In this document: positions 1 through 53,135 of the stretch, piece after piece
Layout of the letters: every line of letters starts with the position of its first letter
How positions within the stretch are numbered: the first letter of the stretch is position 1
Source of the DNA: Tubulanus polymorphus
Taxonomy: Eukaryota > Nemertea > Palaeonemertea > Tubulaniformes > Tubulanidae
Direction: 5' to 3'
Assembly: GCF_964204645.1 (NCBI RefSeq)
Contig: NC_134026.1
Location: 28,104,650 to 28,168,649, forward strand
DNA length: 64,000 bases
Notes under the pieces: generated by a model
The model's database searches: none
Seen by the model: only the letters and a program-made list of their open reading frames with translations
What the model was told of the DNA's origin: nothing
Position numbers and translations under genes: made by a program

Positions 1-3000
1 GTTCCAGCCAAATCGAAGACTCCAAAGCAATCGTGGTCGCAGATTGTTCGAAAGGGAGTGGCTGCTCAGAAGGCGGTTACTGTGAAGAAAAAGTATGTCC
101 AACAAAAGGCTGCAAGAGTTGTCAAAAAGACGGCACAAAAATCTCGTGTAAGTTTTGAAGAACTAGATTTTGTATATGTCGATCCAGGTCCTGGTATGGA
201 TTCTAATACTTGACTTCTTTTTGCACAGGTCATGCCGAAGACCCCAAGAACTAAAATGGCCATGAACGAAGTAAAAACCACTGGACATGCGGAGTCACCC
301 GTTACGTTAATCATCCGCAAAAAGATTGCGAAGACTCCAAAACCATTGCCTAAGAAAGGACAAAAACAACCATTGGTAAGTCCGACTTAGAACCTCAAGG
401 TTTAGAAATAAGCACAAGCCATAGAAAAGCTGTTTTCTCCTTAATTCAAGCCCTCTGACTGTAATTTGAAATATTATCAGTTGAATTTTATACTTTGAAT
501 TTATTATTCACTCAATTTTTTAGAACGCGAATGCAAATGACGACGCAGAAACCAGTTTTACTGGATTAACGGATATGATGAAGACTCCGGCAACTAAATT
601 GGTTACTGAAGATCATTCCCTGTATGATGATATACCGGATACACCGAAAAGTCCTGGTGAGATGATTGTTTCTCCATCTGTTTCTTCAACGAAGAAGAAA
701 CCGGAAGATGATATCGTTTATTCAGGAACTAAGCGACTATTCAAGACACCGCGACAAAAATCTGAAGCCAAATCTCCAACCGTAGGCGCCATCAATAGGC
801 TGTTTGCAACACCAAAAACTAAAAAACCTCTGCAGTCGCCGGCAACTGGGGCATTGTCTAAAATGTTTGCGTCGCCAAGAACTCGAGTCATTCCATCTTC
901 ACCAGACGGGGAAGCTATTTCTACAATGTTTATGTCACCATCGCCGGTGAAACGTAAGCGTGACAGCAATGTCGGAATGAGCAGTTCAAAAAAAGTCAAG
1001 TTGACTCCTGAATCATCGAAGAAGATTCGAACCCCGACTAAATCTACTTCCAAGTCTCCGAGGCGCAAGAGCAAATCTCCGAACAAGTTGATCGTGAAAA
1101 TCCCAAGTCCTGCTAAGTCACCTGTCAAAGCTGATTCATCAATACAAGTTCAGGTATGTTTTACTTAAAGTCTCAGTCAAATATGTCATTACTCAACTGT
1201 CATTTGAATTAAGTCTCTATGTAACTAATGTATTTTTAGGGTTCTTCTCAGAAACGAAAATCATCAACACCAGCTGAACAATCTCCCGTTAAAAAGATAC
1301 TGAAACTGGATGCTGATGCCACTAATGTCGTTGTGCAGGAAAACTTGAATCTTCCAGAAAATGTTGATATGCCTTCTCAAACTGAGCCATCACCAGTGAA
1401 ACCTAGAGGACGAAGAGGTAAAGCCGTAGCAACTGAAGAGAAATCTCCTGTAAAACCCAGACCTAGTAGAAGGGGTAGGGCTGCAGCAGTTGAGATGCCT
1501 GTCCAGGAGGAAACTACAGTGAAACCGACCAGAGGCTGCCGTGGCCAAAAGAGCCAAGCTGTTACTGATGAAGAACCAGTTGAACAAACCCCTGTCAAAC
1601 CAGCTCGAGGCCATAAAGGCAAAGCTGTAGAAACTAGTGAGGAACCGGCTAAACCAACACCTGTTAAACCAGCTCGAGGTCGTAGAGGCAAAGTTGTAGA
1701 AACTAGTGAGGAACCAGCTGAACCAACCCCTGTTAAACCAGCTCGAGGTCGTAGAGGCAAAGCTGTAGAAACTGGTGAGGAACCGGCTGAACCAACACCT
1801 GTTAAACCAGCTCGAGGTCGTAGAGGCAAAGCTGTAGAAACTGGTGAGGAACCAGCTGAACCAACACCTGTTAAACCAGCTCGAGGTCGTAGAGGCAAAG
1901 CTGTAGAAACTAGTGAGGTACCAGCTGAGCCAACACCTGTTAAACCAGCTCGAGGCCGTAAAGGCAAAGCTGTAGAAACTGGTGAGGTACCAGCTGAGCC
2001 AACACCTGTTAAACCAGCTCGAGGCCGTAAAGGCAAAGCTGTAGAAACTAGTGAGGAACCAGCTGAACCAACACCTGTTAAACCAGCTCGAGGTCGTAGA
2101 GGCAAAGTTGTAGAAACTAGTGAGGAACCAGCTGAACCAACACCTATTAAACCAGCTCGAGGTCGTAGAGGCAAAGCTGTAGAAACTAGTGAGGAACCAG
2201 CTGAACCAACACCTATTAAACCAGCTCGAGGTCGTAGAGGCAAAGCTGTAGAAACTAGTGAGGAACCAGCTGAACCAACACCCGTTAAATTAGCTCGAGG
2301 TCGTAGAGGCAAAGCTGTAGAAACTGGTGAGGTACCAGCTGAGCCAACACCTGTTAAACCAGCTCGAGGTCGTAGAGGCAAAGCTGTAGAAACTGGTGAG
2401 GTACCAGCTGAGCCAACACCTGTTAAACCAGCTCGAGGTCGTAGAGGCAAAGTTGTAGAAACTAGGGAGGAACCAGCTGAATCAAAAGCCACACGTGGTA
2501 AAGCTGTTATGGTCACTGAAGCACCAGCCTCTCCAGAAAAGAAAGTAACACCAATCAAACCAACACGAGGCAGAAAGGCTAAAGTTGTAGAAACAGTTGA
2601 AAAATTAAGTCCAGTCAAACCTAAATCCAGGCGTGGTAAAGCTGTCGTTGTTGAGACAACAGCAGAGGAGGAAACTACATCGAAACCCACCAGAGGGCGC
2701 CGTTTAAAGAAGGTTGTTGCTGAAGAACCAGAAACAACAGTTGAAGAGTCGGCCCAGACCAAGTCTACTGGACGTCGTGGTAAATCAGCTGCCGTAAAAA
2801 GGGCTAATTCACCAGTTGGTAAGTTTTGTTGTAGAAAGATAAATAGATAGAGTTGTTATTTTTCTGTTGTTTTCATATTTCATATTTTTCTTAGCTGAAA
2901 CATCGGAAGAGGAATCTCCAAAGAAGCGAAGTCGAACAGCGCGTGCAAAGAAGGAAACGGTGGCCACTAAATCTCCAGTAGCTCAACGTACTACACGATC

Positions 3001-4241: not shown

Positions 4242-7200
4242 ATGTGGAAACTTAGAGAAATCACTGACAAAGTGTAAGTAGAAATTCGATTTGAACCAAG
4301 AGAATTTTTGACAGCTAAGTAAGGAAATCAATGTTTTGATTGAAAGACAAACTAACAAGAAGAGCCGTTTACTGCCATCTTACGCTTTATAGTTTGGAAA
4401 TCTATGTTAGCGTAAAGGTCTAACTGCAGTTAAGGTCACCTCAGTCAGAGTGGTGCTAAAACTAAAAGAATAGTGTGTGATGAGGAAAAAGGACACCTAA
4501 AAACTGCAGTCGCTCCAGTTGTTGTTACTGTTAGTTTGCAGATTCGACAGTTGTAGGCTAACAGAGAAGTCTTGAACAGATAACCTCCCTAGTATAGTTA
4601 GATCAACTCATCTCAGTTATCATTCTATGTATTTGTAGCACCAATGTGGTGATGAACTATTCTGAAGTCGAGGCAAAAGTTCGAGACGCTACGAATGACG
4701 ATCCCTGGGGACCGACCGGTACCGTCATGCAAGAGATTGCGCAATATACGTTTACATACGAACACTTTCCAGAAGTGATGGGTATGCTGTGGAAACGTAT
4801 GTTACACGATAATAAGAAAAACTGGCGCAGAGTTTATAAAGTAAGTTTATGAAAATCTCTTGTTAAAGTTTATTTTATTATTGGCTTACATGGCTAATCT
4901 GACCCTAAGCTAATTAACACCGATTTTTCTAAGACCTTCATTATTTTTGGAATTTTTAATTTGACAAATGGACGTCGAAACAAACGTAGAAACAAACAAC
5001 GTAATGTGAAAAATAGAATTAAACTATACTTGGACAATTATAACAATCATAGTTTATAATCCAAGCCCTGACTTATATTGACAAATTTACTGTTTGTACC
5101 TAGTATTGTAGTTTATCTTGTCATTATACCAAGTTATTATTAAAGATAAACTTCTAAATTTATTATATATTTAGGGATTATTACTTTTGGCTCATTTGGT
5201 GCGAAACGGTTCAGAGCGTGTTGTTACAAGCTCTAGAGAACATATCTATGATTTGCGACAACTTGAAGCGTACACATTCGTCGATGAAAATGGCAAAGAC
5301 CAAGGCATTAATGGTAAGACTCATAATTCCGTATATTTTCTGTTTAATTCCATTAAATTGGAAATGACAAAATGATCAGAGTTTGGAGAAAGCTTACGTG
5401 ATCACTCTCATTATATCAGTGTTTCTCGGAGAAAAGTTTAATGAATGCCTCCCTGAATGTTTTCAGTGCGACAAAAAGGAAAAGATCTGCTCGAATTGAT
5501 ACAAGACGACGACCGATTGAGGGATGAACGTAAACGAGCCAAGAAAAATAAAGATAAATACGTCGGCTTGTCAGGTGAATCAATGGCGTATCGCTATAGT
5601 AAGTACATGTATGCATAATTTTCGCCATGTTGATTGATTGGTATTGCAAGACCTTTATCATTCATCATTACTCATTTAATAGGGTATAGATTTTACATCG
5701 CATTAGGTTCAGTTTTTTGTTCGAAACACTGTGGTGGTTTTGAAATGATCTAATTTGAAAATGACAATATATGTATACATACGTTATGTTTTTATTGAAA
5801 GCATCTCCACTACAGCTTCAAATAGGATTAGGTCAGTGACCAACCACAGTATGTTTTACTAGATAGATCACCACATTTCACACTTAAAAACAAATAAGAC
5901 ATTTATCATTATATATGCTATATGATTTTTGCACATTTTATCAATTCCTGACTACAGAAAGAGAAGTTTTATCAGTTTATACTTAGTATGTAATTTGCCC
6001 TTTGGAAAACTCAACTGATACTAATTGTCCTCACTCAACATGGTAATGAATTTGCAACATGCGTGTGCATGGCTTATTGTATTCAAATGTATTCTGGAAG
6101 TTCATTTCTGTTGTCACTTTTTTATTCTATGAATGTTTTATCGTGTTAGTTGAATGTTGTTTTTTTCACTTCGCGCTTCATCGAAGTCTCGTTTAAAACA
6201 AAGTACTAAGTTAATCAAATGCTTATTTAATTGTAGATTAGATAAATGTCAGTAATTTCAGTTTCTAATTTTTTCCTTATTTACAATATTCTTTCACCCT
6301 TTCAAATCGTTTCCAATGTTAGCGTGCAAAATGTATGTTGTACTCAACTCACAGTTGTTTTTCCCGTTTAATTCTTAGGTGATAGATATGACGAAGAACC
6401 TCGACGAAAATCAAAATTAGATGATTTTGACGAGTTCGATAAAGGCAACAAATCCAAAGCCGTTGAAGCTTTAGATAAAGTAAAAGAACTATGGCACAGT
6501 CGAAGCCGAAGTTTTGATGATGGATCTGATCACAGGTAAGCTTGTTGTATTCTATCGGAAAGATAACTGTCAGCGAACTGTTGTTTAATCAGTTTTACAC
6601 CACACTGAAAGTCTATTTTCAGCACGTATTTGTATTCGGTGATAAAAATACGAATTACATAGCCTAAGATTATTTTGAGGAAATTTTTGTATTGTATTTG
6701 GTTTTTTCGAAGATCGTATTCATCGAATAATTTATTAGAGTTGATTTTTTTTGTAGATCTTCTCTCTTTTAATCTCATTAATTTTTCAGTTTTTCATCTC
6801 GTTCTATTGCTATCGAATTAACATCAAACGTAATGATTACATTACAGAGCTTCAATACACAAATTTTAGCTGATCTTCTGCTGTTGATAAAAGTGTGACT
6901 GAGAGCAGTTTGCATGTTCCAAATAGCATGATTATAACAATGGGCTCTACATGTATATTCACTAACCTTTAAGATCTCACTTTTGATGGATGTACGGGTC
7001 TGGTATAAAACGATGAAAAGGGGAAAACAATCCTATATTATATCGTTTTATCGTTCATCATGAATGCCCCCTAATGTCTTGTTTTATCTTCCCATTATTA
7101 TCAACAGATATTCTGCACAACCTGAGGAACAGACAGGTTCTGGTTCTTCTCCCCCGTGGGCAAAGAAAAGGTATTTGCATCTAACTCGGGATCAGTCTTT

Positions 7201-15647: not shown

Positions 15648-16256
15648 TTACTTTTTGGCTGCAGTTTTCTTGGTAGCCGCTTTCTTCGCTGGAGTCTTCT
15701 TCTTAGCCGGTTTGGCTGCTGACTTCTTGGTTGGAGTTTTGGTTTTCTTAGCGGCAGGCTTGGCTGCTGCGGCCTTCTTTTTTGGCGAAGCTTTAGCGGC
15801 TTTCTTCGCGGTGGCTTTCTTAGCGGCAGGCTTCTTCGCTTTCGGTTTAGCTGCTTGAGGTTTGGTGACCTTCTTGGCGACTGGTTTCTTCACGACTTTC
15901 TTCGGTTTGGCTGCGGTTTTCTCCTCTTTCTTTGCTTCCTGACTCAATCTGAAACGCCCCGACGCGCCTTGACCTTTGTTCATGTAACGAACGTAAGTTC
16001 CCTTGACGAGTCCGGACTTCAGTTCTTTACGGATAAAGACACCTTGACGGTCGATGTCAACTTTAAATTGTCCAGCGATGTGCTTCTTGATGGCAGCCAG
16101 CGACGAACCAGTTTTCTCTCCCAATGCGGTGATCGCGGCTTTCACCATAACGTTGAATGGAGGATGAGCGGCTGGAGCCTTCGGTTTCGCAGTCTTCTTG
16201 GCAGCGACGGCCTTCTTAGCGGGCGAGGCTGGAGCGGCGGCTTCGGCGTCAGACAT
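15648..16256 (-). CDS. Linker histone H1 (replication-dependent, intronless)
   Basis: The protein has 202 residues. The N-terminal tail is Ala/Lys/Pro-rich. A winged-helix globular domain spans about residues 32-106 (from HPPFNVMVKAAITALGEKTG through GQGASGRFRLS), and the C-terminal tail is Lys/Ala/Pro-rich with SPKK- and TPTKK-type sites. It binds nucleosomal linker DNA and compacts chromatin. A single exon plus a 3' stem-loop marks it as an S-phase histone gene. No core histone genes lie nearby, so it is a solitary H1 rather than part of a visible histone repeat. The start ATG gives the usual MSDAEAAAP-type N-terminus. A weak TATA-like site lies around 16354-16360 on the minus strand. Confidence 0.96.
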   Translation of the reverse strand: MSDAEAAAPASPAKKAVAAKKTAKPKAPAAHPPFNVMVKAAITALGEKTGSSLAAIKKHIAGQFKVDIDRQGVFIRKELKSGLVKGTYVRYMNKGQGASGRFRLSQEAKKEEKTAAKPKKVVKKPVAKKVTKPQAAKPKAKKPAAKKATAKKAAKASPKKKAAAAKPAAKKTKTPTKKSAAKPAKKKTPAKKAATKKTAAKK

Positions 16257-18876
16257 ATTTGAAGGTAGTTGATGCGAGTCTCGTAGATCAGAACGCGTGA
16301 GCTTTATTAACGGTTTACTGTTCGAGTGATGTCCACCCCGCCGATACGCGCCTGTATATGTTCAACTATTGCCGACGCGCACGTACCGCTGTTAGATGCA
16401 GAGCATACGATTCTACTCAGCTGAATTCAGCGACGCAGATTTTGTGCTGGATGATGCTGATAAAGGTTTAATTTCTTGCGTTAGCACTCTTAAATCTGAA
16501 AATTATTTTCGTATTCTGACAGCAAAGATATTACTCCATCAATCGATGTAATCAAATCGAAATTTTAGATTACTTAACGGTGTCGAAATTGCGGTTTCTT
16601 AAGGTCAATTGCAGAAAATGAAATGAAACTTTGTTTTAGAGCTAGAAATTAAGACGTTTCATACCTGTGAATCTATCTACTTGTTTCATAGTAAAGATGA
16701 TGTTGTTAACTATCAACTGACGAAGTTTCGTGAAATTTCGAAATGTAAAACCGGTGAAATATGACGATTTATTTTTGACCCTACGTCTAGAGCAGTTTCT
16801 ATAGTCACACGCGGTGGACACCATTCGGGTCCTTTTTTAAATCGACCCGGTGCAGAGCACATGATTAGATACGTAGAACAAACTTTATAATATGATTAAG
16901 CCTATTATTTCAAATAATCTTCGTATCAAATTTTGTATATATTTTCATGCGAAGTTGTTCAATTATAGTTCAAGAGTGATATGGCTCGGCGGCGTCCCTG
17001 AACCATTCTCCTTCTCAATTTCTCCATAGACTGTATTACTTACTTCAGTTCATTTATTGCCAAACATTTTCAAAGTCTTTAATGAAATGCAAAAAAAGTA
17101 CTGAAAACAAATAAAGAGGTACCGGAATCAAGCATGGATTTGGATAATGATAAGACCAAAAAATGTTCTTATCGGCGCGGGTAGGAATGGCCCGTACTGA
17201 TTCAGACGCCATCTATCGGAATACGGTGTCAACAACGTTTGAAGAATGCGCTACTCTGAATATCCCGTCGGATAAATGCATCTCTCCCCTCTCAATCTAT
17301 CTCCTCTCTCGATTTGTGTCAATTGATTGAATAATGAAAAAAATTGAAGAAAACAGCCAAAACGCATGCATTCAGAACATATCGCCTTTTCATTCAACTG
17401 AAACATTTTATTAAAATAAAAGAAGCAAAAGACAATTTATTACAAAATGATTTCATTTTATTTGGAACAAAATGATTAATACTGCCAAACAATAGGTACT
17501 GCCATTTTTTAACAACTGAAGTTCTGTTCCATAGTTCTACAAATGACTTTACCACCTAAAAAACCTTGAGAAAATTGTTCAGACCTGGACTCGGGCCAAG
17601 AAATGCAATAATCATACCATACCACATGGGGGAAAAGAGGAATGTGGTACAATAAACAATAACAGTTCAATTATCATCGACCAGTCAAATTCGAACTTGT
17701 ATATGTTTAGATTTTTGTCACATCAAAATTGCACATGTATTCCGATATCATTATTATCTATATATCTAGTATTCGATCTTATCAGTATCATTAATATTTA
17801 TCGGGAATAAAATGTCAAGAAATCAAGTTTCAAAGTTGTGGCACCAAGGATCTTCACCTCAAACGTAGCCATCAATTAACTCATTCATACACAATAGTAT
17901 CATGAGTAATAGTAGTAGGATAGCGAAGTACACAACACAATAACAAAAACGCAAACAAAATAAAACACAAAGTATGGGAATTAACCTCATAAAATACTAA
18001 AATAAACCACAAAATAAAATAAAACTAAGTATCTAAGACAATAACATGGCGGCATAACTCAATCAATTCTAATATTGGTTATCTCAAATGGATAGAGTTG
18101 ATTAATGACCAGCAAAACACGATAAAACACTTGATGAACTCGAAGAACAATTATTCATCAGATATATCTACATGAATACAAAATTATTGTAAATAATGTC
18201 TTAAGGAGTCATTGAATAGTAAAACAGTTAATTTCAACTAAAAATCATTTTTCAGTTACTCAACAGAACCTATTGTAAAACCTATTGTAGTGATACAAGT
18301 GTTAACGTACAGATCTGTGAAAAATGTTTATAATATAAACGCAGCGAGATTCAATAATGAACAGGACACGTAATTCATCTGGTAATATGCATAGAAATAA
18401 CATAAATATATGATCACAGATCTACATCATATATCATAAAGAGAATATGAAAATACAGTAACAGATGAAAGAATATATGAAAATATATAACGATATCAAT
18501 TATGTTATTGAAATTAATGCAATAGAAGTATAAGTTGTTCAAGTTTGTAGCCCTGTCTACACTAATCACTGAAAGCGTTACCAAAATCTCCTTTAAGGGT
18601 GGCAACCAAAAACCACTTTCTCTGGAATCGTTTTATGGTGTAGATAAGGCTTCTATCGAGTGGCAAATATTTAGAATCTCTATAGAAATTAATCTCAAGT
18701 TTTTTACATGTGACATACCGGGTAACCACAAAGCACAACTGAATATCACTATAGTATCGTATATTCTGTAGATAAAACAGCTAATAGAGAATCTATGGAT
18801 TAGAAAGATCTAAGATTGATTCATACAATAATGCACATGCACCGATATTCCCTGAAATCATACTTCAATGAATATT
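16257..18876. other. H1 upstream region and spacer/3' UTR of the P450 gene
   Basis: The first 150 bp or so should contain the H1 promoter; a CATATACA-like sequence on the minus strand near 16354-16360 and a CCAAT-like ATTG (plus strand) near 16368 are weak candidates. From about 17400 to 18876 the DNA is very AT-rich and is probably the P450 3' UTR in part. I see no coding region. Confidence 0.4.
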
Positions 18877-22007: not shown

Positions 22008-25000
22008 ATGGCGGCTAGCGTAAGAAAACTTCCGAATCTCAAGATTTGCGTCGAGAAAAGTGACGATGAAGAGTCTAACGATGCTCGGGGAACTGAGACA
22101 CGCATTTCGTCGGACGAAGGAGAACAGACGGAAGTGAGTAAATTAGAAGAAGTAGAATTCAGTGTCGCTATTAAGGATTTAGACGCGATCAAACAGCGAC
22201 GACGTGAACAATATCCAACAACAGGATCACTTCCGGGTTTGAGTGCTGTGAGTATAGAACGCCGTTGAAATATTCCAGTCATGCTTTCCCATCATCCTAT
22301 TTCATGTGTTTACACTCCAAATTTATCTCAACTAACAGACTTCTGGTCCGAAGAAGTATGAAAATCGATCTGGCGATTTCATAACCGGTTTTAATCTTAC
22401 TACTGAGGTAAGTATGGACTTTTTTGTTTTGATTTATCATTAGTTAGGCCTAATGTCTGTTTATTAATTGATGAGACCTGTTTTTCTGGGATATTTTGCT
22501 TACTTTTTGGGGTACATACCTCATTTATGTCTTAACAGAATGCCAAAAATCGCGGACAACAACTGAATATCCGATATATTTCCAGTTCTGTACCAATTAG
22601 ATGGATTGGCAAAAAGACTCCTTAAGTCCAGTTTAATGAGAGAGAAAATCCTCCATTTTGTCAGATTTCTTGGATTTGAACATTGTTACCATGCCTACGC
22701 CACCCTGATTTAGTTGTTGAGACCCCACAAGAAAAATAACTTCATTTCGTAGGCATGGTGACAATGTAAAAATTCAAGAAATTTCACAAAATGGAGGATT
22801 TTCTCTCTCATTCAATTGGACTTAAGGAGTCTTTTTGCCAATCCATCTAATTGGTACAGAACTGGAAATATATTGGATATTCAGTTGTTGTCCGCGACTT
22901 TTGGCATTCTGTTAAGACATAAATGAGGTATGTACCCCAAAAAGTAAGCAAAATATCCAAGAAAAACAGGTCTCATCAATTAATAAATAGACATTAGTGC
23001 CGTAGTGGTTTTATTTGACTAGCCCAATGAAATTACATCCATATCCTGTGAGTGGTATTGTGTTAATGTTACTTTTAACATTTATTCTAGGAATTCAATG
23101 AGAAGAAACAACAAAGAGCTAAAAGGTTTGGTATATCATCAGATATACAACCGAAAGCTGTTACTGAAGAAGACCTTACTGGTTTATATGAGAGGTATTA
23201 TAAATATAGGCCTATTGGTTCTGCGTGTATTTTGAATCATTTGTTTGAATATAATGTTTATTCGATGTTTTATCTAAATCCAGTCTTGGAATCACGGAAC
23301 AAACAATAAGAAGGAGTGAACGAGGAATTCGCCCCGAGGCCATTCATCTGAGGGGAACTCATGAAATGAGCACTAGAGATGTTTTCAACTATTTCAAAGA
23401 TTTTTCTCCAGGCTCAATTGAGTGGATTGATGATGCCTCTTGTAAGTTTCTGATAACGAATTAAGTTGTTTCCATTGTTCTATTCATATTTCGATTATAT
23501 CTTTTTTGTTACTAGGCAATGTTGTTTGGATGGATCCATTGACTGCTGCCAGAGCTATGTTTCATTTGAGTTTTCCCACATCTAAACCAGAATCTAAAAA
23601 GAAGAAACCGGTGTCGAAACTGCCTGCTACCAGTGAGAGTATGGAAACTGAGAAAACCACTGAGAGTAACGAAACTAAAGATGGTAAAAACCTGAATAAA
23701 TTTTCATGCTTTTTTCATTTTTACACTGAATGATTCATATTTGATACAGAAATGATTCTTGTGTTTTAGAAAAAATGGAATCATCAGAGAACGCTAAGGA
23801 TTTACTGTTCGATGACGACCTAGATTTACTTAGTGATGATGAAAAAGAGAACAAAAAAGATACGCAAGAAATTAAACAGTCCAATGAGAACGTTGTTGTT
23901 TCTGATGAAAAGCAAGATGTGGTGTCAGAAAAAGCATCAGATAAAACACCTTCAGAAGAGTTAGAGGTATAGTTTCCTGAAACACTTTCAATGGAGCTCT
24001 CCTTCTCGAGCCGGTTGACACTTCAATGAACTTTTTGTAGGATGGAGAAATATCTGATGATGATGCAGGAGAACAGATGGCTGCTGATGTGACAAATGAT
24101 AGCAATCAAACACAGAAAGCTGATTTTGAAAATCTCTTCAAACCTCCTGGCATCTGGAGGATTGGCTTGCCTTATCAAAAGAATGAACTGTTCATGAGAT
24201 TTGCTACTAAAGGTGAGGAACCGCAAATTGAGGCAAGTTATTTTTGAATTGATAACAGCTGATCGATAATGGTGTAAAACTGTATGATTTCAGCTGACAA
24301 AAAATTGCCAGGTGCAGAAAGGAAGAGTAGATATTACCAAAAATATGGTAATCCAAACTATGGAGGTATGTGAAATAACACAAGATTTCTCAATACAGTA
24401 TGTTACAAACATCCTTACTATATTTGCTTAATCTCCGTTTTAGGTTCTAAGGGAGTTATCAGTATATCGAGGTAGGTAAACGTTGTTTCATTGTAGTTAT
24501 ACCATAGAGCAAAGGTGGGCTTAATTCACGTTTTTGATTTATTTAGAAAGCGCCGGTTACGTGATCGCCAACGTAAAGAGGAAAACTTTGAAGCGAAACT
24601 CGCAATTGAGCTTCAGAAAAAGGATTCGAAGTTAGATTCAAAATCAACGTGGTTATACGATGTTGAACAAGAACTACACGATGACCAACGTTTAATCGAT
24701 ATGCAAGATTCTGATAATGAATCAATGGATGTAGAGTTTGAATCAATACCGTCCAGTAGGTCACCGGCTCAACAGAAAAAGCCATTATTTTCTAAATCTA
24801 GTCGAGAAGCCATGTCCCTACGATTAGAAGGAGATTCAGGTAAACATATTACATCGCTATATTGAGGCGATATTAACTGTTTACAGTGTTTGATTATTAA
24901 TCGATTGATCTTTGAAAATAGACTCGGATAGCAGTTGTAGTGAGCCGGCTGATGGGGAGGAGGATGATCTGCAACTTCATCGTAGATTAAATCGCTTACC

Positions 25001-26282: not shown

Positions 26283-29200
26283 ATGGCAACATACAGCGAC
26301 ACAGTATCGATGTCAGAAGAGTTTGAACGATGGAGGGAAATTGGAAATCGGGAAGATGTCGTCATGTTGCAGGTAACAACCACAAACAACCACCACCGTT
26401 GACTTACTTACTACACTTGTCAATGACAATGTCATGTATCTACTCCCTCTACTCTTCTCTGTCACACTGTCCAGGTTTCTCAGTGATGATAGTCCTGCTG
26501 CCCTTACTATTTATGAATACTTCTAAACATGCCCTTGGAACTTCAAAATTACATTCTCTGAAATGATATAGGCCTACCGCTTCATTTAAATCCATTACGA
26601 CATAAGTCTCTATATTATTGTCATAATTGTAGTTAAACTGCAAACTGAAGAAAATAAAGAAAACAATTTCTATTACAGGAAAGTGGTAACAATGATGGGT
26701 CAGTTTTGCTGGAATTGATTTTGGTTGGTCAGCATGAATTCAAGTTGCATTGTCCAGAAGGTTAGCACTAGAGACTTAATAACAGAAGAGTTATAGTCCT
26801 AATTCAATGATACGATGCTAAAGCCGATTTTTGATATTGAAATATTCTTATAAATTCAGGTTATCCTGAACATATTGACAATTTCTATGTGGAGTCATTT
26901 AATCCTGCTATTTCTATTTGGGCAAATATGTTTAATGAGGTAAGCTCTGCGTTGCCTTTTTTAGCACTTCATTCATAATTGTATCCTAGAAATTTTTCAA
27001 ATTTTCTTCTTATTTTCTAAAAATAGTTTTTACTTGACTGTCAGCGTCCATTGACTCTCGGTGAAGTCCTCGAAAAGTATGTAAAAAGTCTTAAAATGTC
27101 TGAGAATTCAGCGATTGATCTAGCAATGTAATATCTGCTTCAGGAATCAGTTTTCGATAGATTTCTATTCATTGAATTATTTACAGGGCTGTTAACCTTT
27201 TCAAAGCTGATCAGAAAGCACAGAAACATGAAGTAAGCGTTACATACAATTATGATGAATGCCCTATTTGAATACACACAATGGCTGAATGAATTTAATC
27301 ATTATTTGTAGGAAGAAGAAATGGAAAGTGAGAGTGATTCAGATGAAGTAAGTTGCTGATTCTTTAATAAATTATTCATTGATTTGTACCATGTTTCCAA
27401 AATGCACCATTTTGCTATATAGGATATGTGCGGTTTTGATGATGAAGAATTATATACAACAGATATGGAGTTGGTCATCGCTAGAAAGAAGGTACATGTA
27501 CAACACTTGGAGGATTATTTTGCGGCATTGTCGCCCTGATAGTTGATCGACCCCTATAGATCCTGTTGATAACATGTATAATATCAATTTCTTTTTTAAG
27601 AAACGTTGGATTGAAAAAGAAGTAAAGCTACGAGAAGAGCTTTGTAAACAAATACCGGAAAAACATGCCGGTAACTCTGAAACTGACGCTATAGGTTCGT
27701 GTGCATTTCATATTGTTCATTGATAATGGACTTTTTGTGTATAATGTTTATTGATATTTACTTGCAGGTAAAGGGACAGCTCAAAATAAACAGATATTTA
27801 CAAGTGTGGCCGCATCAGGAATACTTATCAATGATCTTGTAAAAATCATGCAAATGAAGGTAAGATTATGGCTTATAACTGCCATTGACTAATTGCAACT
27901 TGATTCTCTGTAGCAGCCAGCGACAATCATGTTTCAAAAACCCATCAACCTATGTGTCCTTGCAAATGCCACATATTCTACTTTTTGCAATGTGAAATGA
28001 AAGTCTCTCCCAGTTGCAACTGAAATACACTGCTCTTGCGAATAAGAGACTAGATGCGCTCCTATGTCCATCTTAAGATATAACTACTGTCACTTGAAAT
28101 ATGTTGTTACTGGTTCAAATTTTTTTTCACCGACTTATTTCTCATGATTCATAAAATTTTTAGGATGAAGGGGTAACTGCTGAACCAATTGATGACAATA
28201 TTTATAAATGGCTCGTCCAATTAGATAAATTCAACCCAGAAAGGTAAAGGCATGGTAAAAAAAAGTTTTATGCCTGATAGTGAATTGTTTCTGAAGTAAC
28301 GTTACTTATGGTTGTTGTATTGATTTATATTTGTAGTGATTTAGCTGCTGATTTAGAGATTATTCATGAAAAGTTTGGATATGGATATATAGAATTACAA
28401 TTGGTACTTCAATATTTTACCATTAAACTGCTGTGGATGAATTTATTGATGATGCGTGACGTAACTATTTGAATTGTTTTCAGGATTTTGCTCTTGATCT
28501 CTACCCGTTTTATCCTCCACTTGTCAAAGTTGTTCGACCCAGATTACAGGTAAGATATCGACTAAGCATCCTCTTGATGTACTGTATATTCAAACTGGCT
28601 GTATTACGCTGTAGTGTGTTTCAATTTTAGCCTAGTCTTATGCAGAGAGTGACGAGTATGGAACTACTCAAACTATCTCACTGGAACCCAGCTCGTGATA
28701 TGGCCAGTATTGTCTTTGATATAAAACAGTTAGTACAAATATGGGCCAGGTAAAACAACGTTTTCGTTTGTGGTTCCATTTAATATATGGGATGAGAAAT
28801 AAAAAACCTGAGTACTCTGTTTGTATTATTTCAGGCTTGATGTAAATAGTTTGCGTAATGATCCCATACGGTATCCAAATGGTAGTTTTGTAGATATAGA
28901 ACATTTTCTACTACGTCTTGCCTTAGTAAGTACTATGTTGGCGCACTTCAGAAGTGCTATGAAATGTTTTACTAACATTTATTCGCGATTCGTTTTCTTA
29001 GACTAGTGAAGTAAATCCAAGAGCAAATGAAAAGTACCAAATGGATGTTGATCAAATTCCGAGACCAGTAGAAGTACCTGAAAAGGTAACAGACGATGAA
29101 TAGAATAAAATTCTATGAAGTTTGAAATCATTTTGAAATCACTGCAATTTCTGTTTGGACAGGAAACTGATCAAAATAAAAGCAAGAACAAAAATGAATG

Positions 29201-32200
29201 TTGGGAGAAAGGTGTTGGTTATGGACATGGCGGACGACCAGGTATGTCCAGTCTTATTTTAAACGTTTTCCTGAAATTTCTCTTAATCTTGAAACTGATA
29301 TGATTCGCATATATGATATTATCAGGTTGGGATTACAACGCATACTTAGCGGCACAGCGAGAGAAAGATAGACAGATCGAAAATGTGTTACAACAAATTC
29401 TGCAAGAGTTGAGATTGTTATATGCAAATCACGCTCCGCAGTTGAAACCACGGCGCCATGTCACAAATCCTGATAGTTCTCAAGCTATAGATCCTGTCGA
29501 TGACATGTACAATATTCTTGAAGGTTCAGCACTTATACCATTCATTGAGGTATCTTTCATTCGAATTTCATCAGTGATAATTTCAAACCTTGCATCAAAG
29601 CACACGTTCACATATTTATGTTTTAGGTTTATATGAAAGCTGATTCATTCTTGGAGATTTGTCGTCACACTTCTGTAAGTAACTATGCATCATGGTTGTC
29701 GTTAGAATAATGCTAAATTATGCACATGTTGTCGTTCATTTTTCCTAGGTATACAAAGCACTGGTTGATATTATCAGAGAAATTGGTAAGTAATGATCAT
29801 TTAGTTGTTTTGAAATTGTTTGTATCTGAATAATTATAGCTTTGGTCTATTATTACAGCGATGCAGCCAAAACTGTTACCTCTGTTGGCGCAATTACCAG
29901 GACAAATACATTCAGTTTATCAGCTATTAGAGAATTTAGAAAGAATGGTGAGATACGACTTGTAAATATATGATGTCAAAATGTAACTGAATATATATGA
30001 CATTGTTAGAATTATCAGAGATTAATTGAAAAATTCATTATATGAATTACGCTTTTTTAAGGCGAGTGTGCTGCTACAGAGGATGTGTAAGGCTGGGAAT
30101 GGGAGTGTTCCGAAAGGTGCAAAACGTCGGTACGAAGAAGAAGAATGGGCAACATCGACAAGCGCTGCTGCTTCACTGTTACCCTGCTTACAAAACTGTT
30201 CTCAAAGACAAAGCTCTGGACCAGAATATGAACACAGCACACAAGAGGAAAAATTAGCTCGTGATTTTGTGACCCTTTTTAGAGATCTTTCTGGTAAGTT
30301 TCAAGTTTATTTTCCATGTATATGATTGAGAAAATACATAGTATACATAAATAGTTTTTTTCTCCAAAATTGTCTCCATATTTTTCATATGTTTTCAATT
30401 CGAGGTGAATTTTCAATACTGCAGATGCATTTAAACGGATAGGATTATTGAATGGAGTTGAAATGGATGAGAGTGCTGCTTCAATGGACTGTGATATAAC
30501 AACTACTCAACCTGATACTTTACCACCGCTCCCCGTACCAGATGTTCCACAACCTCAAATACAGGTAAGTTTATTTCAAATATCAAAAAAGGAACTGTAG
30601 ATACATTCCTTTTCAAGAAAACACTATCTTTGATTTCAGGAAACGACAGAGGGTTTGTACATACAACATTTAAAACAACTACAGTTTGATACGTATTCTA
30701 TGGAGCGTAAGTAAATCAAATGAATTAATTGTTTAGTCGTTTAATCCGTTCATAGCTCAGTTCATTTCTTTTTCAACAGTTGAAGGGCATAGTAAGCATC
30801 ATTTTGCCACTGAATTCAAGAATCAATACCGTATGACTCAAGCTCAGGTATTTTTATTCAAATCTGTATCAACATTCAATTATCCAATGTTTGATCTGTC
30901 AATCGATCAATATTATAATGATTTTAGATGTGTCGTATTGTTCAAGAACTCACAGCTCTTCCTTCATCCCTTCCAATTGACCTATCTTCTTCAGTGTTCT
31001 TTCGCTCTGTAAGTAGTTTGAATGTTACTGATATACTGGTATTGATTTTGGTGAATATACGTATCAATGTGATATGTATGAAAATTCATTCAATGTTTAA
31101 TGTATACGTTTTTAGGATGATGATAAAATGACATTAGTGCGAGCTCTTATAACTGGGTAATTTACATAAAGATTTTAATCACGTTGTTGATACTGTTCTT
31201 TTTTATACTGTTAATGAGACTGCATTTCTATCTCTATTAGCCCTGAAGGAACCCCTTATTCCGGAGGCTGCTTTCTATTCGACATATATTTAGATCGTTA
31301 CTACCCTGAAAGACCACCGAAAGTGAACTTTCAGGTGAGCTTGGATATCGTGTAAGCAAAAAATAAAGGTGTTAAAAGTTTATGTTATAAATGTCGTGTA
31401 TAACATGTTTTACAGACAACTGGTAATGGGACTGTTCGCTTCAACCCTAATCTCTACAAGTATGTTTAATGATAGTAAACAATATATTTGTCATTAGACA
31501 TTTTTGATTTAGTTGTTATTCCATTAATTCTCTTGAATACATTTGCTTTTGTAGCAATGGGAAAGTGTGTTTATCTTTGTTGGGAACATGGGAAGGATCA
31601 GCTGGTGAAAAATGGGACCATCGTACCTCTACTCTACTTCAGGTTCGTATCATAAATGAAATACGTGGTAATTGATCATCAAACCAGACCATGGATTGTA
31701 TTGCTTCTTATAGGTTCTAGTTTCTATCCAGTCTTTGATCTTCGTGCCGGATCCATTCTTTAATGAACCGGGGTACGAACACTCAATCGGGACTGAAAAT
31801 GGCAAGAAAGCCAGCGATGACTATAATAAAGGTAACGCAAGCTCATCTTGTTATCATCTTTGTTGAATTTGCTGTTGGGATGAAATTGTTGGTAATTTTG
31901 TCCATTTCATCCAGATGTCCAGATTAACTGTATCAAGTATGCAATGTTGGATCAACTACGACATCCTAGTCCTGGTTTTGAGGAAGTCATTCGCACACAT
32001 TTTTACTACAAAAAGGAAAAATTGTTACAGGTAAAAATAAACTGTCTATTAATGCATTCATTATCACATTTGGAGAGTTCAAATTTCTGGATGTAATGGT
32101 AATTATGTATTTTTTGTAGGACATCGAACAATGGTCGAAGATGATTGAAAAATCTGATTATATCAAAAATCTAATTTCCACACTAAAGCAGGAATTCAAC

Positions 32201-32248
32201 AAATTGAAACTACCGATTCAGAAGCCGCAGTCATCATCAGACACTTGA
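26283..32248 (+). CDS. Large E2 ubiquitin-conjugating protein: RWD-like + UBE2Q-like pseudo-E2 + BIRC6-type E2
   Basis: Thirty-two exons total 2874 nt (957 aa). First exons: 26283-26372, 26679-26760, 26860-26939, 27045-27127. Core exons: 28484-28549, 28631-28749. Last exons: 31241-31334, 31416-31459, 31555-31642, 31714-31831, 31915-32030, 32120-32248. All phases agree. The N-terminus ([21 protein letters not shown]) is RWD-like. The middle ([13 protein letters not shown]...[12 protein letters not shown]) matches the UBE2Q E2 core, but the catalytic position (CMELL in UBE2Q) is SMELL. A helical region ([23 protein letters not shown]) and the C-terminal E2 ([33 protein letters not shown]) match the end of BIRC6, including the active Cys. 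No BIR repeat is present. Probably ubiquitin transfer, with the first E2 fold as a non-catalytic module. I recall no human protein with this layout. Confidence 0.88.
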
Positions 32249-48268: not shown

Positions 48269-49345
48269 TTAGCCTTCAAATCGATAGTTGTTTTCGTTGA
48301 ATTTTGGTTTCAGGAATACAGAACGGGTACATTTCCTGAAAAGACTTGAACTAAGGCAATAAAGATAGAAATTAATGGCTGAATTCATTATCAGCGAAGC
48401 TCGTGATATTTGATACATGACAATCTTAAAGAACAAGTAAACGTTACCAGAAGAGCTGTAGAAGTCCTTAAGCAACACATAAAAATTATAAGTTAAAGAC
48501 GGAAAATGAGTTACAATTAGAAAAATTGAGATCGTCACCACAATTCCGTTTAATGAAGATGATGATGACACGTGACTTTCTGAGATCTTTTGTCTTAAAG
48601 ACATTTGTCGTTTAAACGAAATCAACATAGCAACATTCGATATTACAACCAGAAAAAGTGGTAATTTCAACTCAAATATCAAATCTGAAAATGCCATAAA
48701 AATCAATGTAACTATCACGGGCACTTTTTCATCTAATTGTGAAACACAATCATATATACCATATTCGTTTACACGGGCTCCTGCCAAAATACCTTGCGGA
48801 ATAACTCTTAGTATTCCAACTAAAACTATACATAGCGTGAAGATATAAGCTCTTCTCGGAGTACAAAGAGATTTAGCTTTCAACGCGAATCTGACAGCTA
48901 TAAACCGGTCTATACTCATTAAAGCCAGTATTAAACTGGAGGTCGAAGACGAACCACCGCCGAGTACTTGATATAATCTACAGAATGGAGTTGATAGAAT
49001 TTGCTGATCGTAATGAATTCGTAGAAATAAAACCGGCAAATAAAAACAGATGACGTTAATATCAGAAAAAGCGAGAGCTACTAAATATACACCGACTGAT
49101 GTATCGCAGAAGCGGAATCTCGGCACCAGTAGAATTCGCAAAGATGAAATATTACCAATTGTCCCGATAATGAATATAGTTGGTAGTACGATATATGTTA
49201 CGACGTAGCGGACGTATTCCTTGAAATCAGCAATACGCGACTGATCTGTTGCATTTATTCTACGTAATGACGACATCATAACGTGAAATATGAATTGGGA
49301 CAACGAGGGATCATCAACGTCACCTTCCAAAGTCAGCATTATCAT
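48269..49345 (-). CDS. Class A (rhodopsin-like) GPCR, peptide-receptor type, copy 1
   Basis: An intronless frame of 358 codons. Seven hydrophobic segments are visible: TM1 (YIVLPTIFIIGTIGN), TM2 (VYLVALAFSDINVICF), TM3 starting after the disulphide Cys in STPFCRLYQ and ending MSIDRF (DRY variant), then TM4-TM7. ECL2 has a Cys (YDCVS). TM6 carries VTHFPSL in place of the usual CWxP, and TM7 ends NSAINFYLYCLSSSLFRK (NPxxY variant). The pattern resembles invertebrate FMRFamide/TRH-like receptors; ligand unknown. The start may be this Met or an internal one (MMSSLRRINATDQ). NxT/NxS sites near the N-terminus fit an extracellular tail. It pairs with the gene at 50514-51515. Confidence 0.88.
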   Translation of the reverse strand: MIMLTLEGDVDDPSLSQFIFHVMMSSLRRINATDQSRIADFKEYVRYVVTYIVLPTIFIIGTIGNISSLRILLVPRFRFCDTSVGVYLVALAFSDINVICFYLPVLFLRIHYDQQILSTPFCRLYQVLGGGSSSTSSLILALMSIDRFIAVRFALKAKSLCTPRRAYIFTLCIVLVGILRVIPQGILAGARVNEYGIYDCVSQLDEKVPVIVTLIFMAFSDLIFELKLPLFLVVISNVAMLISFKRQMSLRQKISESHVSSSSSLNGIVVTISIFLIVTHFPSLTYNFYVLLKDFYSSSGNVYLFFKIVMYQISRASLIMNSAINFYLYCLSSSLFRKCTRSVFLKPKFNENNYRFEG

Positions 49346-50513
49346 TAGTCTTGACCACGCGTATCAATTTAAACGGTGTTATTCATCACAGGTTACCGAT
49401 TAAGAAAATCTTTGATTTTGATAACTCTACTACTGATATCAAATAACCAATTATTGCGCCTATGGATATAGCAACTTGATAACGACTGTATGATTTTTTT
49501 CAGTGGTGAATAACGTATTTCCACACACAAACATACATATGTTTACTACAGAATTATGTGCTGTGATAATTTAGATTTTACGGTTCATGTAGATGACGAT
49601 TCTGAAATTTTGTCTTATTTTTCATTGTAGTTATCATCTATAGTTTCGTTCGTTTATTTGACGACGAAGATGATAGATATTACAGTTTACAGTTTTAGCA
49701 CAATGTATTATTTGCCTAAGTGATTATTTGATTTGCAAATAGATTTTCTTAAGGTTTTGATTCATCACGAAAATGATCCTGTCTCGTGTTATTGAATGTA
49801 ATTTTGCATATGATTCTATACTTTTTACTGGACCAGATTTTTAGTCAGGGATATGATTAACAGCTAGTAGACCACAATGATAAAATGAAATTGAGATGTT
49901 TGTACAATTACCTATGAAAAAAAAACTATATTTTGAACATATTTGGCGGAATTCCTGGAATTTTGCAATCCGAGATCGTCATCAATGTCCGATTAGCAAA
50001 GTTGTCTGAGCATGGCTGCACCATTTCCAGAATCAAATTGTTAAATTCGATGTAATAACATATTTTAATGATGTTGATCTCAGTGCCGACATCACGATTT
50101 CATTAAAAAGAACAAAATGTTTACGAGAATGGAGAGTTTGGTAGTCGGTTGGCCACATATTTATTTTTTAAAAAAAGCAATTTCACCCAAAATTTTGAAA
50201 AAGGGTCGGTAGGCAATTAAATTCTATTCTGAAAATGATTATTTGAAACGACGAAATATCGGGTCGGTCGGGCCCGAGAAACAGGGTCTCTTTTGGTGTG
50301 GCCTTAGCGTTCTTAGGACTTATGTCTAGGCCGAAGCTGTTGTCAGTGAATTTTGTTGAAAGTATATTTTAGTAGTGGTGAAATAGAAATGCGGTTTTCC
50401 TGTAGTTGAGTCGTGTATGTTGACATTTGAGACATGAAGTGATTGATAAACAAATTGTATTTCGCTGCTGAAGTTCAATGATATCTAAATGTTTCAAATA
50501 ATAATCACGATTG
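49346..50513. other. Spacer between the tandem GPCR genes
   Basis: No coding region is seen. Duplicated sequence continues a short way beyond both coding ends. The rest is AT-rich spacer. Confidence 0.45.
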
Positions 50514-51515
50514 CTAATCGTAGCCCGTAGGTTGCGTTGTATGTTTACTTGATCTAGTAACTAATAATACGGATCTGGTGCATTTTCTGAAATGACTTGA
50601 ACTCAGGCAATAGAGATAGAAATTAATGGCTGAATTCATTATCAAGGAAGCTCGAGATATTTGATACAGAAGAACTCGAAAGAAAAATTGCACTTTATCG
50701 GACAGAGATATGTAACGTGCCGTCCACACGTGAAAATTATACATAAGAGACGGAAAATGAGTTACAATCAAAAAAATGGAAATCGTCACCACAATTCCGT
50801 TTAGTGAAGATGATAATGACGATGAAATGTTACTTTTTGACATCGTTTGTCTAAATGACATTTGTCGTCTAAACGAAATCAACATAGCAACATTAGATAT
50901 TAGTACCAGGAAAAGAGGTAATGTCAACTCAAATATCAAATTTGAAAATGCCATGAAAGTCCGTGAAACTACCTTGGGAATATCTTTATTTATTCGTGAA
51001 ACACAATCATTGAAACCCTCTACGTCTACACGGGCTCCTGCCAAAATCCCCTGTGGAATAACCCTAAGTATTCCTAATAAAACTATACATAGTGTGAAGA
51101 TATAAGCTCTTCTCGGAGTACAAAGAGATTTAGCTTTCAACGGGAATCTGACAGCTATAAACCGGTCTATACTCATTAAAGCCAGTATCAAACTTGAGGT
51201 CGAAGACGAACCACCGCCGAGTACTTGATATAATTTACAGAATGGAGTTGACAGAATTTGCTGATCGTAATGAATTCGTAGAAATAAAACCGGCAAATAA
51301 AAACAGATGACGTTAATATCCGAAAAAGCGAGAGCTACTAAATATACACCGACTGATGTATCGCGAAAGCGGAATCTCGGCACCAGTAGAATTCGCAAAG
51401 ATAGAATATTACCAATTGTCCCGATAATGAATACAGTTGGTAGTACAATATATGTTATAGCATAGTGAACATTTTCCTTCAATTCTGCGTTACGCGTCTG
51501 ATCTGTTTCATTCAT
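50514..51515 (-). CDS. Class A (rhodopsin-like) GPCR, peptide-receptor type, copy 2
   Basis: An intronless frame of 333 codons, a tandem duplicate of 48269-49345 in the same orientation. TM1-TM4 are almost identical between copies (for example VYLVALAFSDINVICFYLPV and GGGSSSTSSLILALMSIDRF). The N-terminus, ECL2 (DVEGFNDCVSRINKDI), the loop before TM7 and the C-terminus differ. DRF, the TM6 THFPSL and the TM7 NSAINFYLY variants are shared. The start MNETDQTRN aligns with the internal INATDQ of copy 1. Homologous open sequence (FHVLTSSLSR) continues upstream of this Met without an obvious start. Ligand unknown; probably a neuropeptide-like receptor. Confidence 0.88.
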   Translation of the reverse strand: MNETDQTRNAELKENVHYAITYIVLPTVFIIGTIGNILSLRILLVPRFRFRDTSVGVYLVALAFSDINVICFYLPVLFLRIHYDQQILSTPFCKLYQVLGGGSSSTSSLILALMSIDRFIAVRFPLKAKSLCTPRRAYIFTLCIVLLGILRVIPQGILAGARVDVEGFNDCVSRINKDIPKVVSRTFMAFSNLIFELTLPLFLVLISNVAMLISFRRQMSFRQTMSKSNISSSLSSSLNGIVVTISIFLIVTHFPSLMYNFHVWTARYISLSDKVQFFFRVLLYQISRASLIMNSAINFYLYCLSSSHFRKCTRSVLLVTRSSKHTTQPTGYD

Positions 51516-53135
51516 TCTACTTAATGACGACGTCAGAACGTGAAATATACAAACCGATAAGTAGATTGAGGGAACATCGAAGACACTCGTGAAACGAATA
51601 GTTATACATCGGTCTCTGTACGACTACTGACACGTGCATCTATTTGATAAACAGTGAGTATAAGTATATACGTATTTCATTTTCATATTAGCCAAAGCTG
51701 AATTCGGTTACCAATTAGGAAAATATTCGACGACGCTAACCGTGTACTAACGGTGTCGAGTAACTAATTGGTTTCATGAATTTATAGTAACTTGATAATG
51801 ATAACGACTGTATGATTTTCACGTTCGTACATCGAAAATAGAAATAGAAAATCCCACTGAAAATCATATGCTTGTGAATCATGCCTATCAACTTCATGTT
51901 GAGGTTCTTGTATTTTTCTGTTTTGGACGACGACAATTTGAAAAATCTAAACCTGGTGGAATGAACCACGTTGATATCGGTGATATACAACACTCAAATA
52001 AATTCCTTACATGTAAAGAAAGATTTCAAATCTTTAGTATCGATTGCTTAGAAAAGTCGACCGACGCTGAGTGTAAGAAATGGCTTCACATTCCCTTGGG
52101 TCCATATTTTGTCAACAATGATATAAATCAGATATTCATATTGGCGATCATAAAACTGGATCAAAGTCTCGAGGAAAAGATGCAAATAAGTGAAACGATT
52201 GCGGCGGGACAAAACATATATACATCATCGGTATAAAGAATACGACATGAATATCTATTTTTTCAATGTATTTTTTGCATTAACGTTGATCTCGTCTGAA
52301 GCTGTGGATATTTTTCTATGTCACCCGAACTGATTTGGGGATTAACAAACATTCCCCTCTCTCTATCGACCTTCTTGATTGCCTTTCGCGGTGAAAATAC
52401 CAAAGGTTGCGCCATGACCACATTTTTCCCGGTTGGCCAAAAAGTGAAAATAGGCGAGTAATCTGAATTACCCAATTCACTCTCGTAGAAAAAGGATACC
52501 GGCTGAGCTGGTCGAATTTACATCATCGTTGTTAACACACACACCATTCATTCTAATTTCGAAAACTACGCTTCTCCGGGAAAACGTTCCAATCATACAC
52601 AATGGAATGCGTTTTTTCTCTCCTCCAGACTTGTAGAAATTGTATGCAATTTTCTTATGAAACGAAATTCAAATGCAGCAAAGTTGAGGAAAATCAGATC
52701 GGATACAATTGCAGATCATATATCATAGAATCTAAAATGCCAAGATTCATACGACATACGGCCGCCGAGCCTTAGTTGTAATTGTAATTGACAGATTGTG
52801 GTCACTCGAACGTAGCTGGTTATCATGAAATGATTTATTATATTAATCAACACTAATATCACTTATAAGTTCTATCAACAATTCCCGTATCAAAAATATA
52901 TACACAGGTCAGTGCCTAACATTTTGAGGGCAGTTCTATTTCAAGAAAAAGTGCACTTTTTCACCATGATAAGGGGCACTTTCCTATTGAAAAAGGACAC
53001 ATCTTAAATATGATTATTTCACTTTTCATTTCCAAAAAACATGAAAGTTGTATCGAAATTTCGAAAAATCTTGACCCAAATGTTGACACTGACTTAAGGA
53101 CACTGTCTTAGCTACCTTCGCTGCCACTGAACCCC
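51516..53135. other. Spacer downstream of the GPCR pair; no firm gene
   Basis: The 122-codon plus-strand ORF at 51868-52236 has no recognisable domain and no supporting splice or context signal. A short frame from 52602 to 52773 has a Cys pattern (LLQTCRNC) recalling multi-copy, transposon-associated invertebrate proteins; it is probably a relic. Nothing else is supported. Confidence 0.35.

Follow-up and report, generated by a model that had tools for sequence, protein, structure and literature searches.

E2 folds that lack a catalytic cysteine are known from the ubiquitin E2 variant (UEV) proteins, such as Mms2/UBE2V and TSG101, which stand beside an active ubiquitin-conjugating enzyme (E2); the pair of UEV and Ubc13 is an example. 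Two other kinds of E2 are relevant to the present work. UBE2Q1 and UBE2Q2 have a UBE2Q-type E2, and UBE2Q1 needs Tyr343, His409 and Trp414 besides its cysteine in order to discharge ubiquitin; mutants at these three positions all load ubiquitin, but discharge onto a test peptide is lost in every one of them save Y343F (PMC10971424). BIRC6 (BRUCE/Apollon) carries an E2 at the end of a giant chain. Here we describe what is probably a single gene in a 64,000-nucleotide window (the whole stretch of DNA analyzed; positions 28,104,650 to 28,168,649 of contig NC_134026.1, assembly GCF_964204645.1) of the nemertean Tubulanus polymorphus, whose predicted product of 957 amino acids (aa) joins a UBE2Q-like, apparently inactive E2 to a BIRC6-type E2 that retains its active cysteine.

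Compared with the last part of BIRC6 (residues ~4284-4789), the protein has the same W-x-K-G-x-G-x-G linker motif and last helical stretch, and the same E2 with both extensions, the active Cys and a Trp at Cys+7, with 47% identity over the E2 part (aa 675-936). It differs in that the WD40, BIR, CBM32 and UBL domains and the 31-repeat armadillo body of BIRC6, as listed in PMC10827748, are absent. With UBE2Q1 and UBE2Q2 it shares the UBE2Q-type E2, the MELL context, the preceding acidic linker and possibly an RWD-like start, but their Cys351 is Ser here, Tyr343 and His409 have no counterpart, the W-S-S-A loop reads W-N-P-A, and a second, live E2 is fused. The likeness to UEV proteins lies in a Cys-less E2-type module alongside an active E2; the pseudo-E2 here, however, is not of the UEV type by Pfam, and its partner is in cis rather than in trans. 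UBC-17 of Caenorhabditis elegans is reportedly far smaller than BIRC6. It is entered as the worm counterpart of BIRC6 in Table 1 of PMC9300945 and could be a relative. No UBE2Q-BIRC6 fusion was found described in the open-licence literature searched by titles and abstract openings, which is weak evidence of absence.

Two E2 domains in one predicted protein

The C-terminal half is BIRC6-like in two blocks, aa 400-536 and 675-936, which are collinear with the C-terminal ~500 residues of BIRC6; aa 537-674, between them, gave no match. An earlier annotation of the locus, made without database searches (hereafter the sequence-only reading), had called these blocks a BIRC6-like helical linker and a BIRC6-type E2, and the phmmer matches (Table 1) bear out both names. 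The linker match contains the W-x-K-G-x-G-x-G motif, and aa 421-560 score z 20.6 against BIRC6, with none of 1000 shuffles as good; Pfam misses the human BIRC6 linker fragment too. Pfam recognizes the E2 itself as UQ_con, with 5.7e-29 for the protein as a whole and the best stretch at 747-878. Its catalytic Cys is in place as Cys813, as had been claimed, although the TGT codon lies one base away from the 31567-31569 given for it. The LB-loop Trp near the Cys, a feature of the class IV E2s charged by UBA6, is also present (Trp820). In PMC4705383, UBE2Z without its Trp-bearing LB loop, or without its N-terminus, can be loaded by UBA1 too, and BIRC6 loading seemed better from UBA6 than from UBA1.

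The layout had been described as free of BIR repeats. Indeed, Pfam listed three families for the 957-aa model at E values up to 1, and neither BIR nor WD40 is among them. Most of the armadillo body also appears to be absent, judging from the protein length and from phmmer, in which only the BIRC6 4284-4418 stretch precedes the E2 part. As a separate observation, the counterpart of the LC3-interacting motif of BIRC6 (NPQTSSFLQVLV, as given in PMC10827748) lies in exons 29-30 at 31625-31722 and has Leu in place of the aromatic residue.

The first E2 is UBE2Q-like, as proposed: aa 204-342 match UBE2Q2 (1ZUO, E 1.2e-15) and UBE2Q1 (2QGX, E 1.7e-12) by phmmer, and these two lead the 42 distinct PDB sequences found at E values up to 1. 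All but one of the 42 are E2s, and the next best stands at 1.1e-6. The sequence-only reading had placed a Ser at its active site, and both the codon (AGT) and the residue (Ser304) are correct; it falls under the catalytic Cys in UBE2Q2 as well as in UBE2Q1. The claim that this E2 is dead gains further ground from its surroundings. The protein has 13 cysteines in total, and none of them lies between aa 178 and 405. The position of UBE2Q1 Tyr343 is a gap in two alignments and Leu in the phmmer alignment, His409 aligns to Pro, and Trp414 aligns to Asp or to nothing. The stretch aa 334-406 is free of Trp, and the nearest one, W407, is aligned with a BIRC6 Trp. It is important to note that the alignment is poor towards the end of the pseudo-E2, so that the calls at His409 and Trp414 are less sure than those at Tyr343 and Cys351. 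Because Ser304, the lack of any Cys and the missing counterparts of Tyr343 and His409 point the same way, the case for inactivation does not depend on a single residue, and the sequence supports a catalytically inactive domain.

The pseudo-E2 retains the fold residues YPFYPP, VKVV and W313. After the active site, its W-N-P-A loop resembles W-S-P-A, which we take to be the RING E3 (ubiquitin ligase)-docking loop of canonical E2s. The pseudo-E2 alone has no UEV match in Pfam; a weak UEV match of the whole protein (0.0011, below cut-off) at 745-823 falls on the live E2.

Gene model

The gene model began with the 33 exons given by an automatic splice search that started at the ATG of position 26283, and three changes were then made by eye on the criteria of splice consensus and open frame. 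A weak extra exon at 27914-27991 was removed; a short exon at 30283-30293 was extended to 30062-30293, the donor before it being moved to an earlier site, after 29947; and the acceptor at 31732 was shifted to 31714. The last change is backed by a BIRC6 match found later (VLVSIQSL), and the first two are without such support. The resulting model has 957 aa, in 32 exons with one open frame, in agreement with the length first put forward. All 31 introns are GT-AG, with lengths of 59-306 bp (median 81), and every one of them carries an in-frame stop or a frame shift. The spliced frame has the terminal stop only, whereas the spliced sequence read in its two alternative frames contains 47 and 101 stops. 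The content of guanine and cytosine is 0.395 in exons and 0.305 in introns, and M1 is preceded by an in-frame stop with four codons between.

N-terminus and acidic linker

The sequence-only reading also included an RWD-like N-terminus, and this part was not borne out by either Pfam or PDB sequences. No Pfam match was obtained for aa 1-128 with a limit of E 10, at which the HMMER filters drop most matches above 0.1, and the N-terminus found only two irrelevant matches, at 0.14, among PDB sequences. The Pfam test is able to work, since a UBE2Q2 N-terminus matches RWD at 1.3e-6 as a control; the protein of the window fails it. Pairwise similarity to the same UBE2Q2 sequence is weak. A local match, LHC..YP...V.S..P, scores z 3.1, with 4 of 500 shuffles as good, and aa 1-203 against UBE2Q2 1-200 score z 4.9, with 0 of 500 as good, a score inflated by acidic stretches in both sequences. 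An RWD-like start is no more than possible.

Interpretation and alternatives

The reading that we favor is that of an active BIRC6-type E2 whose scaffold is replaced by a docking UBE2Q-like pseudo-E2, and we assign it a probability of about 0.46. Cys813 would load ubiquitin, probably from UBA6, and ubiquitin would be transferred to the substrate with little or no separate E3. The non-catalytic UBE2Q-like module would occupy the place of ~4,280 BIRC6 residues (WD40, BIR and armadillo scaffold). It would act as the docking part, holding a RING E3, ubiquitin or a substrate beside the live E2, a task comparable to that of UEVs for Ubc13 though within one chain, and substrates would be held by the N-terminal half. 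The pseudo-E2 may dock partners because the E2 fold residues and the E3-type W-x-P-A loop are kept, and it is plausible that it positions ubiquitin, an activating enzyme (E1) or E3, or a substrate, as the sequence-only reading had suggested. UBA6 charging, the folding of the pseudo-E2, its docking role, the substrates and the single transcript are what we infer from sequence.

Several points weigh against this reading. The RWD part, which would be the likeliest substrate binder, is weakly supported. The pseudo-E2 (aa 225-393) is matched in Pfam by UQ_con only, at 0.00012, with 22.1 bits against a gathering cut-off of 27, and its counted identities are close to one another: 35% to UBE2Q2, 32% to UBE2Q1 and, over a shorter stretch, 30% to a canonical E2. 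The poor alignment of its end counts here too, as does the presence of a Trp (W407) near the junction, though that residue is aligned with a Trp of BIRC6. The codon of S304 is one base from Cys, and in a single assembly a base error could be at work; real inactivation is favored over sequencing error, since the Tyr343 and His409 counterparts are absent and the domain has no Cys. Translation continued past exon 15 runs into a stop after fewer than seven codons; AATAAA follows at 29104 and, at 29115, an in-frame ATG that is open into exon 16.

Single-sequence and alignment-based scans of viral contigs with the pseudo-E2 and with the live E2 found no relative, which also tells against the reading, although the collections scanned are of viruses and prokaryotes rather than animals. 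An alignment-based scan of prokaryote-genome contigs with the live E2 found no relative either. A degenerate DNA motif for the region of the active Cys was found in 0 viral stretches and in three stretches from prokaryote genomes (L001, L002 and L003), none of which matched the pseudo-E2. By tblastn with the whole protein (E up to 1), L003 encodes a BIRC6-type E2 (109/253 identical, E 5e-59), L001 an E2 (60/189 identical, E 5e-20) beside genes that by eye are giant-virus-like, and L002 gave a 12-residue match only (E 0.75). The BIRC6-type E2 of L003, at 6157-7032, is on a contig filed as Rhodobacteraceae, beside bacterial-looking genes, and is probably contamination or a chimera.

Among the alternatives, the pseudo-E2 might be an inhibitor, either as a competitor for E1 or by packing against the live E2, which would stay switched off until the N-terminal half is bound by a partner. 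Its E2-like sequence in cis with a live E2 would suit such a role; there is, however, no sequence sign of contact with the live E2, and ~280 residues lie between the two. We regard inhibition as improbable. We give equally little credit to the view that the UBE2Q half is a functionless relic of gene fusion or a plain spacer. Its strong divergence, with about a third of its residues identical to UBE2Q2, and the loss of its active site would agree with this, but the half is open over ~390 codons in 15 exons and keeps its fold-defining residues, neither of which would be expected to survive long neutral decay.

Two further alternatives seem to us less probable still. In the first, the pseudo-E2 is slow rather than dead, and Ser304 holds ubiquitin as an oxyester, keeping a stable ubiquitin beside the live E2. 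Cys-to-Ser mutants of E2s do form stable ubiquitin oxyesters in vitro, but slowly. The UBE2Q1 mutants cited above still load ubiquitin, so that loading may persist without the triad; on the other hand, Tyr343 and His409, which were modelled as stabilizing bound ubiquitin (PMC10971424), have no counterpart here, and this fits general decay of the site better. In the second, two neighboring genes, one UBE2Q-like and one BIRC6-like, have been merged by the model, the first ending and the second starting in intron 15. The stop, AATAAA and open ATG just described favor this. In the 31 introns taken together, AATAAA occurs 6 times, where ~3.2 would be expected. Nevertheless, all three signals lie within 20 bp, too short a space to fit a 3′ end and a promoter, and the second gene would therefore begin within the first. 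In-frame open ATGs are present in 4/31 introns, so that of intron 15 is not special; the splice signals of intron 15 are average, with the donor ranking 14 and the acceptor 18 of 31; and the next exonic in-frame Met after the junction is M480, past aa 400, at which BIRC6 homology starts shortly after intron 15. Both halves are likely to be in one transcript, as judged from these features, and it is conceivable that a short transcript covers the UBE2Q half only, or that a second gene begins in intron 15. Recent duplication of one E2 within the gene is rejected, as the similarity between the two E2s does not exceed that of shuffled sequences (222/1000 as good).

Feature coordinates and neighboring DNA

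Table 1. Features of the gene in window coordinates, with the basis on which each was assigned.
Feature	Position	Strand	Basis or remarks
Whole coding region	26283..32248	+	32 exons, 957 aa; spliced translation, all GT-AG, single open frame
Putative RWD-like N-terminus, exons 1-4, aa 1-111	26283..27127	+	Weak local similarity to UBE2Q2 N-terminus
Acidic linker, aa 112-203, at the site of the UBE2Q2 acidic linker	27187..27796	+	Translation; alignment with UBE2Q2
UBE2Q-like pseudo-E2, exons 9-15, aa 204-393 (of these, aa 204-342 with demonstrated homology)	27797..29085	+	phmmer
Ser304, AGT, in the column of UBE2Q1 Cys351	28655..28657	+	Alignments to UBE2Q2 and UBE2Q1
W313-N-P-A loop after the active site (W-S-S-A in UBE2Q)	28682..28693	+	Alignments
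Intron 15, 77 bp, phase 0, near the module junction	29086..29162	+	Holds stop, AATAAA (29104), in-frame ATG (29115)
BIRC6-like linker, aa 400-536 = BIRC6 4284-4418 (8ATM chain)	29181..29899	+	phmmer E 1.8e-12
BIRC6-type E2 with N- and C-terminal extensions, aa 675-936	30559..32182	+	phmmer independent E 8.3e-76 to BIRC6 4520-4789
Cys813, TGT, catalytic Cys of the live E2	31568..31570	+	Translation, BIRC6 alignment
Trp820 (Cys+7), counterpart of the UBE2Z/BIRC6 LB-loop Trp	31589..31591	+	Alignment

Six of the seven neighboring pieces were searched. The DNA upstream matches NCBP3 and that downstream matches PRP38 and a P2X receptor, and because of these neighbors we regard the window as an ordinary chromosomal stretch of a eukaryote, with the gene content of an animal or a close relative of animals. 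Near the NCBP3-like exons, at 22450-22997, there is a long inverted repeat of two 250-nt arms that are 95% complementary and 48 nt apart, which looks like a foldback mobile element. An open frame of 536 codons at 1240-2850 (+) contains a 69-bp tandem repeat at 1569-2485 (13.3 copies, 94% matches), which encodes Lys/Arg/Pro-rich units of 23 aa (..EPTPVKPARGRRGKAVET..). On the minus strand, by eye, an open frame at 15648-16361 is linker histone H1-like, and two adjacent, similar, long open frames at 48269-49363 and 50514-51623 are seven-helix receptor-like.

Significance

The E2 pseudoenzymes described so far are mainly stand-alone partners, the UEVs; here the predicted pseudo-E2 would be in cis with a BIRC6-type E2 and is akin to the hydroxyl-modifying UBE2Q enzymes. 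The junction near intron 15, which is in phase 0, would fit exon shuffling. This leads us to suggest, tentatively and with the odds against it, that the gene represents a conserved, unrecognized animal family of E2s with a built-in E2/pseudo-E2 pair. Exon shuffling at the phase-0 intron would have placed a UBE2Q gene before the end of a BIRC6-type gene, after which the UBE2Q half would have lost catalysis and become the recruiting arm of an E3-independent enzyme. With a pseudo-E2 and a live E2 in one chain, the compact protein of 957 aa would be an expressible substitute for the active end of the giant BIRC6, and the contribution of a dead E2 to a live one would be directly testable. It would also mean that the E2 end of BIRC6 is able to move to a new targeting module.

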